Below, one piece after another: positions 20,946 to 58,334 of a DNA stretch of 64,000 nt. The stretch comes from Sphingomonas sp. (GTDB lineage Bacteria > Pseudomonadota > Alphaproteobacteria > Sphingomonadales > Sphingomonadaceae). The translations under genes and the position numbers were made by a program. Every line of letters starts with the position of its first letter. The stretch's first letter is position 1. The stretch covers positions 124,001 to 188,000 of the forward strand of contig NZ_JAFKLZ010000002.1 of assembly GCF_017304615.1 (NCBI RefSeq). Direction: 5' to 3'. The notes beneath the pieces are model-generated. The model was not told where the DNA came from. It was given only the letters and a program-made list of their open reading frames with translations, and did no database searches.

Positions 20946-21030
20946 ATGCTTCGCCCCTGCCGGAAATCGATCGGACGACCTTCGCGCGCGGCGGGGCGGT
21001 GTCAAGCGGCGACACGACGAGATTTACTAG

Positions 21031-21129
21031 GCATGGGCAAAGCCCATGCCGTCGGCCGCTGCTTTTGGCAGCGCCGGCCGGGCTTGGCCGCGGGCGGCGA
21101 TTAGCGTGCGCTAATCGCCTCGGCCAAGC
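21031..21129. repeat. modular variable-stem hairpin element, copy 1 (3' of sdhA)
   Basis: From left: hairpin GCATGGGC/GCCCATGC with AAA loop (21031-21049); CGTCGG linker; hairpin GCTGC/GCAGC; CGCCGGCCGG; then GCTTGGCC (21082-21089) and GGCCAAGC (21122-21129) enclosing an inner palindrome with arms GCGATTAGCG and CGCTAATCGC (21097-21118). The right outer arm abuts the sdhA stop codon. The inner palindrome recurs at 45452-45473. Confidence 0.8.
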
Positions 21130-22932
21130 TCAATAAACCCGCTTCTTCGGCTTGATATACTCCACATCGTCCGTGAGCGTGTAGTCGTGGACCGGGCGGT
21201 AATCGAGGCTGACGCTCCCGCCCTTGCCGCCCCAGCCGTCGAACGTCGCGATGGTGTGCTTCATGAAATTCTTGTCGTCACGCTCGGGATAATCCTCGTG
21301 CATGTGCGCGCCGCGGCTTTCCTTACGATTGGCCGCGCCCCGGATCGTGACGATCGCCTGACCGAGCAGGTTATCGAGTTCGAGCGTCTCGACCAGGTCG
21401 GTGTTCCAGATCAGCGACCGGTCGGTGATGCCGACATCGCCCAGCGACTTGTACACCGCATCCATGTGCGTCACGCCTTCGTCGAGCAGCGCCGTGTCGC
21501 GGAACACCGCGCAATGCTTCTGCATCGTGCGCTGCATGTCGAGGCGAATTTGCGCGGTCGGGGCGGCGCCCTTCGCATTGCGGAAATGGTCGAGCCGTTC
21601 GATCGCCTTGTCGTCCGCGGCGGAGACGGGCGCGCCGTGCTTGGTATTGGGCTTGAGGATGTCGGCGATTCGCTTGCCGGTCGCGCGGCCGAACACGACG
21701 AGATCGATCAGCGAGTTGGAGCCGAGCCGGTTGGCGCCGTGGACGCTGACGCACGCCGCCTCGCCCACGGCAAACAGGCCGGGCACCACGGCATCGGGAT
21801 CGCCGTCCTTCAGATGGACGACCTCGCCGTGATAGTTCGTGGGGATGCCGCCCATATTGTAGTGGACGGTCGGCGTGACCGGCAGCGGCTGGCGCGTCAG
21901 GTCGACGCCGGCGAAGATCTTCCCCGTCTCGGTGATGCCGGGCAGGCGCTCGTGCAGCACCTTCGGATCGATGTGATCGAGGTGGAGGTAGATGTGATCC
22001 TTGTTCGGGCCGACGCCGCGCCCTTCGCGGATTTCGGCCGCCATCGATCGCGACACGACGTCGCGCGACGCCAGGTCCTTCGCCGAGGGGGCATAGCGTT
22101 CCATGAAGCGCTCGCCCTCGGAATTGGTCAGATAGCCACCCTCGCCGCGCGCGCCCTCGGTGATCAGCACGCCCGCGCCGTAAATGCCCGTCGGGTGGAA
22201 CTGGACGAATTCCATGTCCTGCAGCGGCAATCCGGCGCGTAGCACCATCCCGCCGCCATCGCCGGTACAGGTGTGCGCCGAAGTCGCCGAGAAATAGCAG
22301 CGGCCATAGCCGCCCGTCGCCAGCACGGTCGCATGGCTGCGGAAGCGGTGGATGCTGCCATCCTCCATGCACAGCGCGATCACGCCCTTGCACTCGCCAC
22401 CTTCCATGATGAGGTCGAGCGCGAAATATTCGATGTAGAAATCGGCGTCGAAGCGCAGGCTCTGCTGGTAGAGCGCGTGGAGCATCGCATGGCCGGTGCG
22501 GTCGGCGGCGGCGCAGGTCCGCTGCGCGGGTGGCCCCTCGCCCATGTTCTGCATCATGCCGCCGAACGGGCGCTGATAGATCTTGCCCGCGTCGGTGCGG
22601 CTGAACGGCACGCCGGCATGTTCGAGTTCATAGACCGCCGCCGGCGCCTCGCGGACCATATATTCGATCGCGTCCTGGTCGCCGAGCCAGTCCGACCCCT
22701 TGACGGTGTCGTACATGTGCCAGGTCCAGTGATCCGGACCCATGTTGCCCAGGCTGGCGGCGATGCCGCCCTGCGCCGCGACGGTATGGCTGCGGGTCGG
22801 AAACACCTTGGTGATGCACGCCGTCTTCAGGCCGCTTTGCGCGCATTCCTGCACCGCGCGCAGGCCCGATCCGCCCGCGCCGACGACCACCGCGTCATAG
22901 GTGTGGTCGATGATCTTGTACGCGTCGCTCAT
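21130..22932 (-). CDS. sdhA: succinate dehydrogenase flavoprotein subunit
   Basis: 600 residues. FAD-binding [13 protein letters not shown] at the N-terminus; [12 protein letters not shown] contains the histidine that carries covalent FAD; later HRLGSNSL-type [21 protein letters not shown] and the C-terminal [18 protein letters not shown]. It oxidises succinate to fumarate at the inner membrane. It overlaps sdhD by 4 bases. ATG at 22932 chosen; further upstream would overlap sdhD. No sdhB follows. Confidence 0.97.
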
Positions 22933-23333
22933 CCTGCCGCCGGCCCCGCTGCTGCTACCGTGAACAATGCCGCCTTGAGGATCGAGAAGATCGCGGTGAC
23001 GGCGATGATGGCGAGGAAATATTCGGCGATCAGCAGCCACGCGACGCGACCCTCATCATCCTGATAATCCTCGATCAGCACCTGCAGCCCCAGCCGCGCG
23101 TGCCAGCAGGTCGAAATGACCAGCAGGATCAGCGGCACGGCATTCCAACTCAACCGAATCCAGTCGTGGACCGCGTTATATTCGAAATTCGGTAGCCGGG
23201 TCAGCGTGAACATGAACCAGGCGAGGAAGAACAGGTTCGATCCCGCCGTCACGCGCTGGCGCCACCAGTGATGCGCGCCTTCCTTGGCGCTGCCTAGGCC
23301 GCGGACGCGGCCGAGTTCGGTACCGTCGCCCAT
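22929..23333 (-). CDS. sdhD: succinate dehydrogenase hydrophobic membrane anchor
   Basis: 134 residues with three transmembrane helices. The N-terminal [20 protein letters not shown] is typical of alphaproteobacterial SdhD, and [17 protein letters not shown] holds the heme b histidine ligand. Anchors the SdhAB head and carries electrons to ubiquinone together with SdhC. Overlaps the sdhC stop and sdhA start (ATGA type). Confidence 0.94.
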
Positions 23334-45240: not shown

Positions 45241-45380
45241 CGGGGCCCCAGCCGGGTCGATCCCGGCGCAGGAGCGCCTAGCGCAGAAAGCTTACCAGAT
45301 CGCGGGCGATTTTGGGCGTGTCCCGCGGCGAAACGATTGATGGTTAACGCAAGATTTGCGGATCGCGAAGGTGACTGGCC

Positions 45381-45488
45381 CGCCAGCGAAGTGAATTCGC
45401 TGGCGTCGGACGGTCGGCGCTGCCAACCGCCGGCCGGCCTGATCGCTGTCAGCGATTAGCGCACGCTAATCGCGTCGCGGCTCAGGCC
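45381..45488. repeat. modular variable-stem hairpin element, copy 2 (3' of clpS)
   Basis: From left: hairpin CGCCAGCGAA/TTCGCTGGCG (45381-45405); TCGG linker; GGCGCTGCC; CGCCGGCCGG; outer arms GGCCTGA (45436-45442) and TCAGGCC (45482-45488) enclosing the inner palindrome, arms GCGATTAGCG and CGCTAATCGC (45452-45473). The right outer arm contains the clpS stop codon. Distance from first hairpin to palindrome is 46 bases, against 47 in the copy at 21031. Confidence 0.8.
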
Positions 45489-45835
45489 TTCTCCAGCGTG
45501 CATTGCAGCGGATGCTGGTTCTGCCGTGCGAAATCCATCACTTGGCTGACCTTGGTCTCCGCGACTTCGTAGGTGAATACGCCGCACACGCCGACGCCCT
45601 TCTGGTGGACGTGGAACATCACCCGCGTCGCTTCCTCCACCGACATGCGGAAGAATTGCTGGAGACACAGAACGACGAATTCCATCGGCGTGTAGTCGTC
45701 GTTGAGCATCAGCACGCGATACGGCGTCGGCTGCTTGGTCTTGCTGCGGGTCCGCGTCGCGATCCCGACGCCGGTGCCCTCGTCGTCGGAACGATCGGGC
45801 GGCAGGGCCATATGGGTGTTAGGAAAATCGCGCAT
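45482..45835 (-). CDS. clpS: ATP-dependent Clp protease adaptor ClpS
   Basis: 117 residues. The core [25 protein letters not shown] contains the substrate pocket (NDDYT and M) and [24 protein letters not shown] the ClpA-binding and His residues of the family. It hands N-degron substrates to ClpA. ATG 45835 is listed; ATG 45811 is possible and no ribosome site decides. It is not linked to clpA, which is 39 kb away. Confidence 0.95.
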
Positions 45836-56534: not shown

Positions 56535-58334
56535 TTACCCCCCGATCGTCGCGCACTTCGCGAGCAGCCACGTGCGCTCGTCGGCCGTCAAATGCGGTCC
56601 CAGCACGTCCAGCACGCGGCCATGATAGGCGTCGAGCCACGCACGCTCGGCTTGGCTCAGCATCGCCGGTTCGATCAGACGGCGCTCGATCGGGGCAAAG
56701 GTCAGGGTTTCGAACCCCAGCATCGTCTGCTCTGCGCCGGGGACGTCGCGGTGTTCGACCAGCACGAGATTCTCGATGCGGATGCCGTATTCGCCCGCTT
56801 TGTAATAGCCCGGCTCGTCCGAGATGATCATGCCCGCGCGCAGCGGCTCGGCGGGGCCGCCGCCGGGATAATTGGGCTTGGCGATCCGCTGCGGCCCCTC
56901 ATGCACCGCGAGATAGCTGCCGACACCGTGCCCGGTGCCGTGCGCGAAATCGAGACCCGCGTTCCAAAGTGGCCGGCGCGCGAAGCTGTCGAGCTGGCCG
57001 CCGTTCGTCCCTTCCGGGAAGACCGCGGTTGCGAGCGCGATATGCCCTTGCAGCACGCGGGTGAAGCGGTCGCGCATCTCGGCGGTCGGTTCGCCGACCG
57101 GGATGACTCGCGTCACGTCGGTGGTGCCATCGGCATACTGCCCGCCCGAATCGACCAGGTAGAGCTGCCCTGGCTCGATCGGCAGGCTCGATTCCTCGGT
57201 CACGCGGTAATGCGGGATCGCGCCATGCGGGCCGGTGGCGGAAATCGTGTCGAAGCTCAGATCCTTGAGCAGTCCGGTTGCCTCGCGCAGTTCCTGCAGC
57301 TTGGCGGCGGCGGTCAGTTCGGTTTCGGTGCCGCCCGGGAACGTCTCCTCGCACCATTTGAGGAAACGCGTCAGCGCGACCCCGTCGCGCACGCTCGCCG
57401 CACGATGGCCCGCGGCTTCGGCCGGATTCTTGATCGCCTTCGCCAGCACCACCGGATCGCGCAACGCCAACACCGTCGCGCCGCCCCGTTGCAGCCCGTC
57501 GAAGATCGCCGCCACCGCGCGTTCGGGATCGGCGGCGACGCGCTTGCCGGCATAGCGGCCGAGCGCGGGCGCGAAGTCCGTGCGATCATGAATGCGCACG
57601 GCATTGCCGAGATGCGCAGCGACGTCCTCGCTCATCTTTTCCGGCGCGACGAACAGGTCGAGCGTGCCGTCTGCATTGGCGATCGCATAAGCCAGCGCGA
57701 CGGGCGTGCGCTCGACGTCGGCGCCGCGCACGTTGAGCGCCCAGGCGATCGAATCGAGCGCCGACAGTACCACCGCATCGGCCTTGTTGTCGGTCAACCA
57801 GTCGGCGATCTCGGCGCGCTTCTGCGCAGAGGATTTGCCGGCAAGGTCGTCCGGCTGCACCACCAGCCGCGCATCCGACGGCGCGGGGCGATCGGGCCAG
57901 ATCGCATCGACGGGGTTGGTGTCGACCGCCACCAACGCCGCGCCCTTCGCGGCCAGCGCCTTCTCCGCCGCCTTTACCCAATCCGACGTGTGCAGCCACG
58001 GGTCGTAGCCGATCCGCCCGCCCTGTGGCGTGTGGCCAGCCAGCCAGTCCGCGACGCTGGTCGCCGGCACCTCGACGAATTGCCAGTCGCCGCCATCGAC
58101 CTGCTCGCGGACTTGCAGCGTGTAGCGCCCGTCGGTGAACATCGCCGCTTCCGCAGGCAGCACCACCGCCGTTCCCGCCGACCCCTGGAACCCGGTCAGC
58201 CATGCCAGCCGCTGGGCATAGGCGCCGACATATTCGGACATGTGTTCGTCGGTCAGCGGCACGACGAACCCGTCGAGCCGGTCACGCTTGAGTTGCTCGC
58301 GCAAGGCGGCGAGGCGGTCGGCATAAGTGGACAT
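56535..58334 (-). CDS. pepP: Xaa-Pro aminopeptidase (M24B)
   Basis: 599 residues, the long three-domain form. The dinuclear metal site is intact: Asp and Asp in LVDSGGQYADGTTDVTR, His in GTGHGVGSYLAVHEGP, Glu in ISDEPGYY and Glu in IRIENLVLV. Two N-terminal creatinase-like domains precede it. It removes N-terminal residues before proline. ATG 58334 (MSTYADRLAALREQL) fits the family. Convergent with spoT. Confidence 0.94.
   Translation of the reverse strand: MSTYADRLAALREQLKRDRLDGFVVPLTDEHMSEYVGAYAQRLAWLTGFQGSAGTAVVLPAEAAMFTDGRYTLQVREQVDGGDWQFVEVPATSVADWLAGHTPQGGRIGYDPWLHTSDWVKAAEKALAAKGAALVAVDTNPVDAIWPDRPAPSDARLVVQPDDLAGKSSAQKRAEIADWLTDNKADAVVLSALDSIAWALNVRGADVERTPVALAYAIANADGTLDLFVAPEKMSEDVAAHLGNAVRIHDRTDFAPALGRYAGKRVAADPERAVAAIFDGLQRGGATVLALRDPVVLAKAIKNPAEAAGHRAASVRDGVALTRFLKWCEETFPGGTETELTAAAKLQELREATGLLKDLSFDTISATGPHGAIPHYRVTEESSLPIEPGQLYLVDSGGQYADGTTDVTRVIPVGEPTAEMRDRFTRVLQGHIALATAVFPEGTNGGQLDSFARRPLWNAGLDFAHGTGHGVGSYLAVHEGPQRIAKPNYPGGGPAEPLRAGMIISDEPGYYKAGEYGIRIENLVLVEHRDVPGAEQTMLGFETLTFAPIERRLIEPAMLSQAERAWLDAYHGRVLDVLGPHLTADERTWLLAKCATIGG

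Follow-up and report, generated by a model that had tools for sequence, protein, structure and literature searches.

The window, that is, the whole 64-kb stretch of DNA that was analysed, carries sdhA on its minus strand. The stop codon of this gene (TGA) occupies 21130-21132, and a structured element begins at the next base, 21129. The element is about 105 nt in length and folds into three ordered hairpins, which run P1, P2 and P3 in the 5´ to 3´ direction. The locus contains the following features.

21130..23040, minus strand: open reading frame of sdhA (636 aa; Pfam Succ_DH_flav_C and FAD_binding_2)
21031..21129, minus strand: whole three-hairpin element 3´ of sdhA (model match 21023-21139)
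21082..21129, minus strand: P1, an outer stem enclosing an inner stem
21122-21129 with 21082-21089, minus strand: outer stem of P1, GCTTGGCC/GGCCAAGC
within the palindrome 21097-21118, minus strand: inner stem of P1, GCGATTAGC/GCTAATCGC, with a 4-nt loop
21050..21081, minus strand: P2, comprising a CGGCCGG base, a variable stem-loop, a bulged base and CCG-A-CG (CCGACG)
21031..21049, minus strand: P3, the hairpin GCATGGGC-UUU-GCCCAUGC

The P3 of the sdhA copy reads GCATGGGC-UUU-GCCCATGC with 21031 as its last base, and no U-tract lies 3´ of it. All the parts that the first-pass annotation had described at this locus are present. However, the two segments that it had taken for conserved linkers (CGTCGG among them) are paired together and form the base of P2.

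A second copy lies at the end of clpS.

45482..45835, minus strand: clpS (Pfam ClpS)
45382..45488, minus strand: clpS copy of the element (model match 45375-45494)
45382-45404, minus strand: P3 of the clpS copy
about 45404-45437, minus strand: P2 of the clpS copy
about 45436-45488, minus strand: P1 of the clpS copy

The clpS copy has the same order as the sdhA copy, with stems that differ in letters but are still complementary, and the clpS stop codon (45482-45484) falls inside its P1 outer stem. With up to 3 mismatches allowed, the inner palindrome occurs twice in the window, both times exactly, whereas shuffles expect 0.07 occurrences. The full model scores the sdhA and clpS copies at 81.2 and 73.7 bits (E 1e-17 and 6e-16, respectively), both copies being part of the alignment from which the scoring model came. 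The next matches in the window are an antisense match that overlaps the clpS copy (45431, E 4e-4) and, at 21097 (E 0.015), part of the sdhA copy matched in antisense. The match at 57798 (E 0.009) is located inside long open reading frames and was taken as a false positive, and the remaining matches are at chance level.

The copies extend well beyond the window. A seed model of the core pairs only (R1), which covered 7 of nine hand-picked copies and was later replaced, matches 54 of 61 genus genomes (E<=0.01). The full model (R2), built on 40 copies, finds 45 copies in this genome at E<0.01 and 57 at E<=1, and 61 copies in the relative G028. In the family, which was taken as the sphingomonads from the records Hephaestia (L021) and Sphingomonas (L022), at least 31 of 119 genomes in at least 26 of 96 genera match at E<=1e-4; the other 88 genomes have no match at this threshold among the few candidates scored in each. 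Because either 19 or 31 candidates were scored in each genome, the per-genome copy counts in the family, order and class surveys are lower bounds. At E<=0.01, the order survey yields matches in 43 of 196 genomes, of which 42 belong to the same family and one (G099, E 0.001) does not. The class survey has 10 matching genomes among 190: two belong to the genus, and the other eight, all outside the family, hold single matches with E of 8e-4 to 9e-3, which were treated as chance, given that about two are expected by chance at this threshold and that the model E-values are rough. Six of these eight (L141-L146) were dropped from the position, terminator, loop, T-tract, CGTC and arm-binding counts; they still stand within the fitted alignment described below and were set apart in the linker-pair count. 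The further copies that the first-pass annotation had proposed to seek with a covariance model are thus found in related genomes.

The inner palindrome alone is a poor search key. Searched exactly, it returns three records among the genome contigs, and one of them, an Anaerolineae record (L020), has the palindrome without P2 or P3 as judged by eye. The 22-bp palindrome of that record, the same as here, stands alone and seems to lie upstream of a gene, where it may be an operator or a chance occurrence. Viral contigs searched with one strict pattern gave 0 matches, and a phage origin was set aside on this ground, yet one weak copy (L151) follows a phage capsid gene.

The pairing is retained while the letters change. 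In a MAFFT alignment of 40 copies (A4), which was built without fitting to the structure, pairing holds in 87.9% of cells and both sides have changed in 19 of 26 pairs. Cells with two-sided changes number 114 compared with 38 in shuffles, and the covariation score is 0.304 against 0.123 in shuffled and at most 0.073 in slid controls; the count of further pair types alone is not above shuffles (87/500). RNAalifold on A4 recovers the P1 inner stem, P2 and P3, with the two linker segments paired together, and does not recover the P1 outer stem. P3 pairs in 97% of A4 cells, whereas the P1 outer stem in fixed register pairs in only 57%, because its register shifts between copies. The fitted alignment (A6; 68 rows, including six weak non-family matches and one antisense overlap) gives a covariation score of 0.476 against at most 0.072 when slid. 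In A6, the inner palindrome, which had been described as invariant, shows compensated variation at 8 of its 9 inner pairs, and only the apical GC/GC pairs are nearly fixed in the family. The apex of P1 is conserved as AGC/GCU, often with a GNRA loop. Two pairs between the linker segments carry compensated G-C to A-U changes (6 and 3 of the 62 family rows), with no weak row among them, and the same two pairs change in four and three rows of an own-genome alignment (A5; 55 rows, with some copies represented twice). Such changes are seen in L088 and in the own copy L113, in which CGGCCAGC faces CTGACG.

Two alignment-free comparisons agree with these results. Of the 56 instances, 54 passed the filter; the five tested P2 arm pairs are all formed in 37 of these 54 copies, compared with 11% when the arms are crossed, and the P1 outer arms bind at -16.0 kcal/mol compared with -9.7 kcal/mol crossed in the 62 of 106 sequences that had the core. 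Relatedness is not removed by the shuffles, and the slid and crossed-arm controls were used against kinship. The stems therefore covary beyond shuffled, slid and crossed-arm controls, and the modular 3´ element of conserved structure that the first-pass annotation had proposed stands, both in its compensatory changes and in its copies in related genomes. In the copies inspected, the P3 loops are mainly of two types, UUU/UUC triloops (CTTTG, CTTCG) and the GATTNACTC type.

The element is placed at gene ends, as defined by our own codon-score caller, ARAGORN and Rfam. A same-strand 3´ end is located at the element start in 32 of 45 own copies and in 25 of 31 copies elsewhere (57 of 76 together; the 31 were counted after the six weak non-family matches had been dropped), mostly as a stop codon 0 to 10 nt before P1. 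No sense 3´ end was detected at 13 of the 45 own copies, 11 of which have no opposite-strand stop nearby. At 11 of 45 own copies, the end of a gene on the opposite strand also lies no more than 40 nt from P3, and L113 adjoins the 5´ end of an opposite-strand tRNA-Met. This genome has three facing pairs of copies, 19-24 nt apart (L150 3343-3585, L116 1501-1748 and L148 3356-3594). In the L150 pair, one copy lies after a ferredoxin gene, and no gene was called for the other; the copy list of G028 shows similar facing pairs.

The hosts are diverse. Host names were assigned from Pfam domains, with Pfam run on 30 of 52 upstream proteins (23 of 27 own, 7 of 25 other), and no family was found for five of the 30. 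Among the protein hosts in this genome are rpoZ, sdhA, an Era-like GTPase, rho, clpS, nusG, a ferritin-like protein, rplL, a Mur ligase, infC, a ferredoxin, two pyridine nucleotide-disulphide oxidoreductases, carD, groEL, eipA and a phage capsid gene, and those elsewhere include rpoA, fur, rpsD, nrdB and rpsA. Stable RNAs are also hosts: tRNA-Trp, tRNA-Gly, tRNA-Val, tRNA-Asp, tmRNA and SRP RNA in this genome, and SRP RNA, suhB sRNA, tRNA-Gly and tRNA-Trp elsewhere. The tmRNA ends 12 nt before the model start, which is farther than the other stable-RNA hosts. Because stable RNAs are among the hosts, the factor common to all of them is the transcript end and not translation.

Presence at a given gene end changes between relatives. 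Among 30 genus loci at the sdhA end, the element is found only in this genome and G028; G012, whose sdhA part is 94% identical, is without it. After rpoA in 29 family genomes, the element is clear in 3 (L191, L211 and L216) and weak in 2 (L213 and L217), and it is missing from the rpoA end of this genome; it follows rpoA in a dozen or so genus loci, which were chosen by element score and thus give no rate. The copies after rpoA in L213 and L217 are variants with a P3-like hairpin (TGCGGCTTTG...) inside the P2 loop. Between G028 and this genome, the element occupies orthologous gene ends in 11 of 30 G028 loci compared (30 of its 61 matches; orthology was judged by upstream DNA, and L225 was placed from the contig start), and the other 19 have no partner among the own copies. 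At the 11 shared ends, the elements are 64-88% identical and the upstream DNA is 71-92% identical, with stems that by eye differ in a paired way. Within this genome, the closest copies (L114/L115) score 67 over about 101 nt, compared with 24.5 for the median pair, and L114, L115 and L132 are among the top-scoring pairs. Judged from these comparisons, the copies look old, turning over and under selection for pairing.

Such turnover could reflect a selfish repeat of the REP kind, dispersing between genes, tolerated at their ends and with little function of its own. The dispersed copies, the patchy presence at the same gene end among close relatives, the few own copies that are alike and the facing pairs are in keeping with this reading, and CGTC REPs without a dedicated transposase are reported, in the available part of the source, from alphaproteobacteria including S. 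wittichii and N. aromaticivorans (PMC3733652). However, stems at orthologous sites differ and nevertheless pair, and neutral spread would not give a same-strand orientation and a spacing of few bases, also after tRNA and SRP RNA, so we regard a selfish repeat as unlikely. GTAG REPs can outlive their own transposase. This genome has no match to Y1_Tnp/RAYT (PF01797), which is matched in 5 of 14 control genomes; the absence speaks against a selfish repeat and weakens membership in the GTAG REPs without excluding it, because those REPs can persist after their transposase is lost.

As far as the accessible text of PMC3733652 goes, REPs are palindromes of 20-40 bp with a CGTC or GTAG tag, and the CGTC type has an 8-9 bp stem that starts from A-T pairs, mostly a CCA tail and often a head-to-head dimer arrangement. 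Like both types, the element consists of dispersed palindromes mostly downstream of genes, but it is about 105 nt long and has three hairpins in fixed order. The CGTC unit, searched after that definition as a CGTC tag plus an 8-9 bp stem starting with AT and a loop of 4-5 nt (4-6 allowed), is present on neither strand in any of the 76 copies. Head-to-head dimers do not predominate either; the three facing pairs within 50 nt comprise 6 of 45 own copies. At Rfam 15 gathering scores, the window gives no match, and at E<=1 no match covers the element at five loci. The first-pass annotation had recognised no named repeat here, which agrees with the lack of an Rfam family and with the poor fit to either REP type tested.

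Other comparisons are partial. Like L17DE and HRC-28-1, as these are presented in the available portions of PMC7247131 and PMC8632094, the element is a conserved RNA structure downstream of genes; those two follow mainly one kind of gene, whereas the element follows many unrelated genes and stable RNAs in one genome. It shares the placement at transcription-unit ends and a GC-rich last hairpin with intrinsic terminators, but a U-tract follows P3 in a minority of copies and two conserved hairpins precede P3. The Caulobacter CIR are long intergenic alphaproteobacterial repeats with an inverted-repeat organisation, centred on GANTC methylation sites. The element resembles them in length, location and organisation, but only some P3 loops hold GATTC. 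In the literature searched, which leaves most subscription papers outside, no sphingomonad element of this kind was found. The known sort to which the element belongs is that of dispersed structured 3´ elements; by placement it resembles REPs and terminators, but it fails the defining tests applied to it here. We do not rate it as categorically new because its mechanism is inferred only.

A site that acts at the DNA level is quite improbable. In that case, gyrase or a nucleoid protein would bind, or supercoiling would be relieved, after highly transcribed genes, and the pairing would be that of palindromic DNA; many hosts are indeed core genes expected to be heavily transcribed, and REPs/BIMEs are described as binding sites for several proteins in the part of PMC2817692 available. 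Against it stand the fixed order of the three hairpins, which are unlike one another, and their single orientation relative to the neighbouring 3´ end in most copies. In addition, of the 67 rows with a TAGC/GCTA core, 18 have a GNRA loop and none has a loop of the reverse-complement class, and G-U cells (90) are in weak excess over A-C cells (65) in 109 rows, which include three antisense matches overlapping a copy (in L117, L128 and L075). This loop bias and the weak G-U excess point to the sense strand, i.e. RNA, as the functional form.

There is likewise only a small chance that the copies are ordinary intrinsic terminators preceded by two extra hairpins. Zymomonas mobilis belongs to the same order as the sphingomonads. 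Its U-tract terminators work and are found at about a third of mapped transcript ends, according to the accessible part of PMC7566282. P3 is followed by a U-tract in the rpoZ (L084), rho (L116), infC (L133) and nusG (L090) copies, 11 of 76 copies have a canonical terminator at the position of P3, and T-rich tracts after P3 (at least 4 T in 7 nt nearby) are enriched, with 29 of 109 rows against 11% in the background. However, 65 of 76 copies have no such terminator with its U-tract at P3, and 51 have a canonical terminator neither at P3 nor within 150 nt after the element. In the other 14, the first canonical terminator lies within that distance, and many of these may be background, since 21 of 150 random 164-nt stretches contain one. 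At groEL, rpsA, rpsD and rplL, a canonical terminator is located 34-60 nt away, so the element is not the sole terminator there. At the relatives' sdhA ends without the element, a canonical terminator is present within 200 nt in 9 of 27, about twice the background. The P1 hairpin and the P2 base are kept across genera, which an ordinary terminator would not need.

The least probable explanation is a translation-linked device in which P1 stalls or slows ribosomes terminating at the stop codon: the stop codon touches the predicted helix in 36 of 47 CDS-linked copies, and such an effect on ribosomes is reported in E. coli for REPs no more than 15 nt from a stop codon. REPs less than 16 nt from the stop are described as translational down-regulators in the available text of PMC12306157. 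However, the spacing is similar after tRNAs, tmRNA, SRP RNA and suhB, whose ends are not translated.

The three-hairpin structure, its compensatory conservation, its orientation and its spacing to most host ends were computed. From this arrangement we infer, with a probability of about 0.55, a lineage-specific structured RNA element that ends or protects the 3´ ends of sphingomonad transcripts, mostly without a U-tract. Because the mRNA, tRNA, tmRNA and SRP RNA hosts share a transcript end, a role at the 3´ end, by termination, by a block to exonucleases or by both, is the best reading; the element would act in RNA, ending the transcript and blocking 3´-to-5´ exonucleases. Once transcribed, it is predicted to fold into three consecutive hairpins, with P1 starting at the stop codon or, for a stable RNA, at its mature end. 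P2 would have a bulge and a strongly conserved base, and P3 would form a tight GC hairpin. Since P3 is mostly without a U-tract, it may serve as a stop or barrier of its own type, alone or together with a bound protein, and not as a textbook intrinsic terminator. The P1 apex and the P2 base look as if they make contact with a protein or with one another, and it is their conservation that suggests recognition by a protein.

A bolder form of the 3´-end reading is possible but doubtful, namely that the three hairpins are a dedicated signal, read by RNA polymerase or by a putative protein, of a general end or protection system for core genes and stable RNAs, which would be neither U-tract intrinsic nor plain Rho termination. 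If the element does end or protect transcripts, its copies provide a ready and testable set of gene ends and a pointer to a possible RNA-binding factor, in a group of bacteria used in degradation and biopolymer work. The copies after rho, nusG, rpoZ and carD, and after rpoA in relatives, raise the question of whether the transcription machinery itself is controlled through the element.

Several further observations were made at individual loci. At L043/L025 in this genome, a full copy (C4:313155) is followed 374 bases on by a near-alike second P1 (313529) without a recognisable P2 or P3, which is a partial duplication. At L121/L040, a remnant resembling the 3´ end of tRNA-Gly (compare L072) stands directly before the element with no complete tRNA, and may be the att site of an integrated island. 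Between rpoA and rplQ (L190-L218), many family genomes contain a conserved stretch, GGGGTACCT...ACGGCCCC...ACGAACGAAGGA, before rplQ, which may be the L17 leader that the available part of PMC7247131 reports from Actino- and Proteobacteria. Finally, inspection by eye places a TTGACA 25 nt after the P3 of the sdhA copy in both this genome and G028, which suggests that the next transcription unit may start there.
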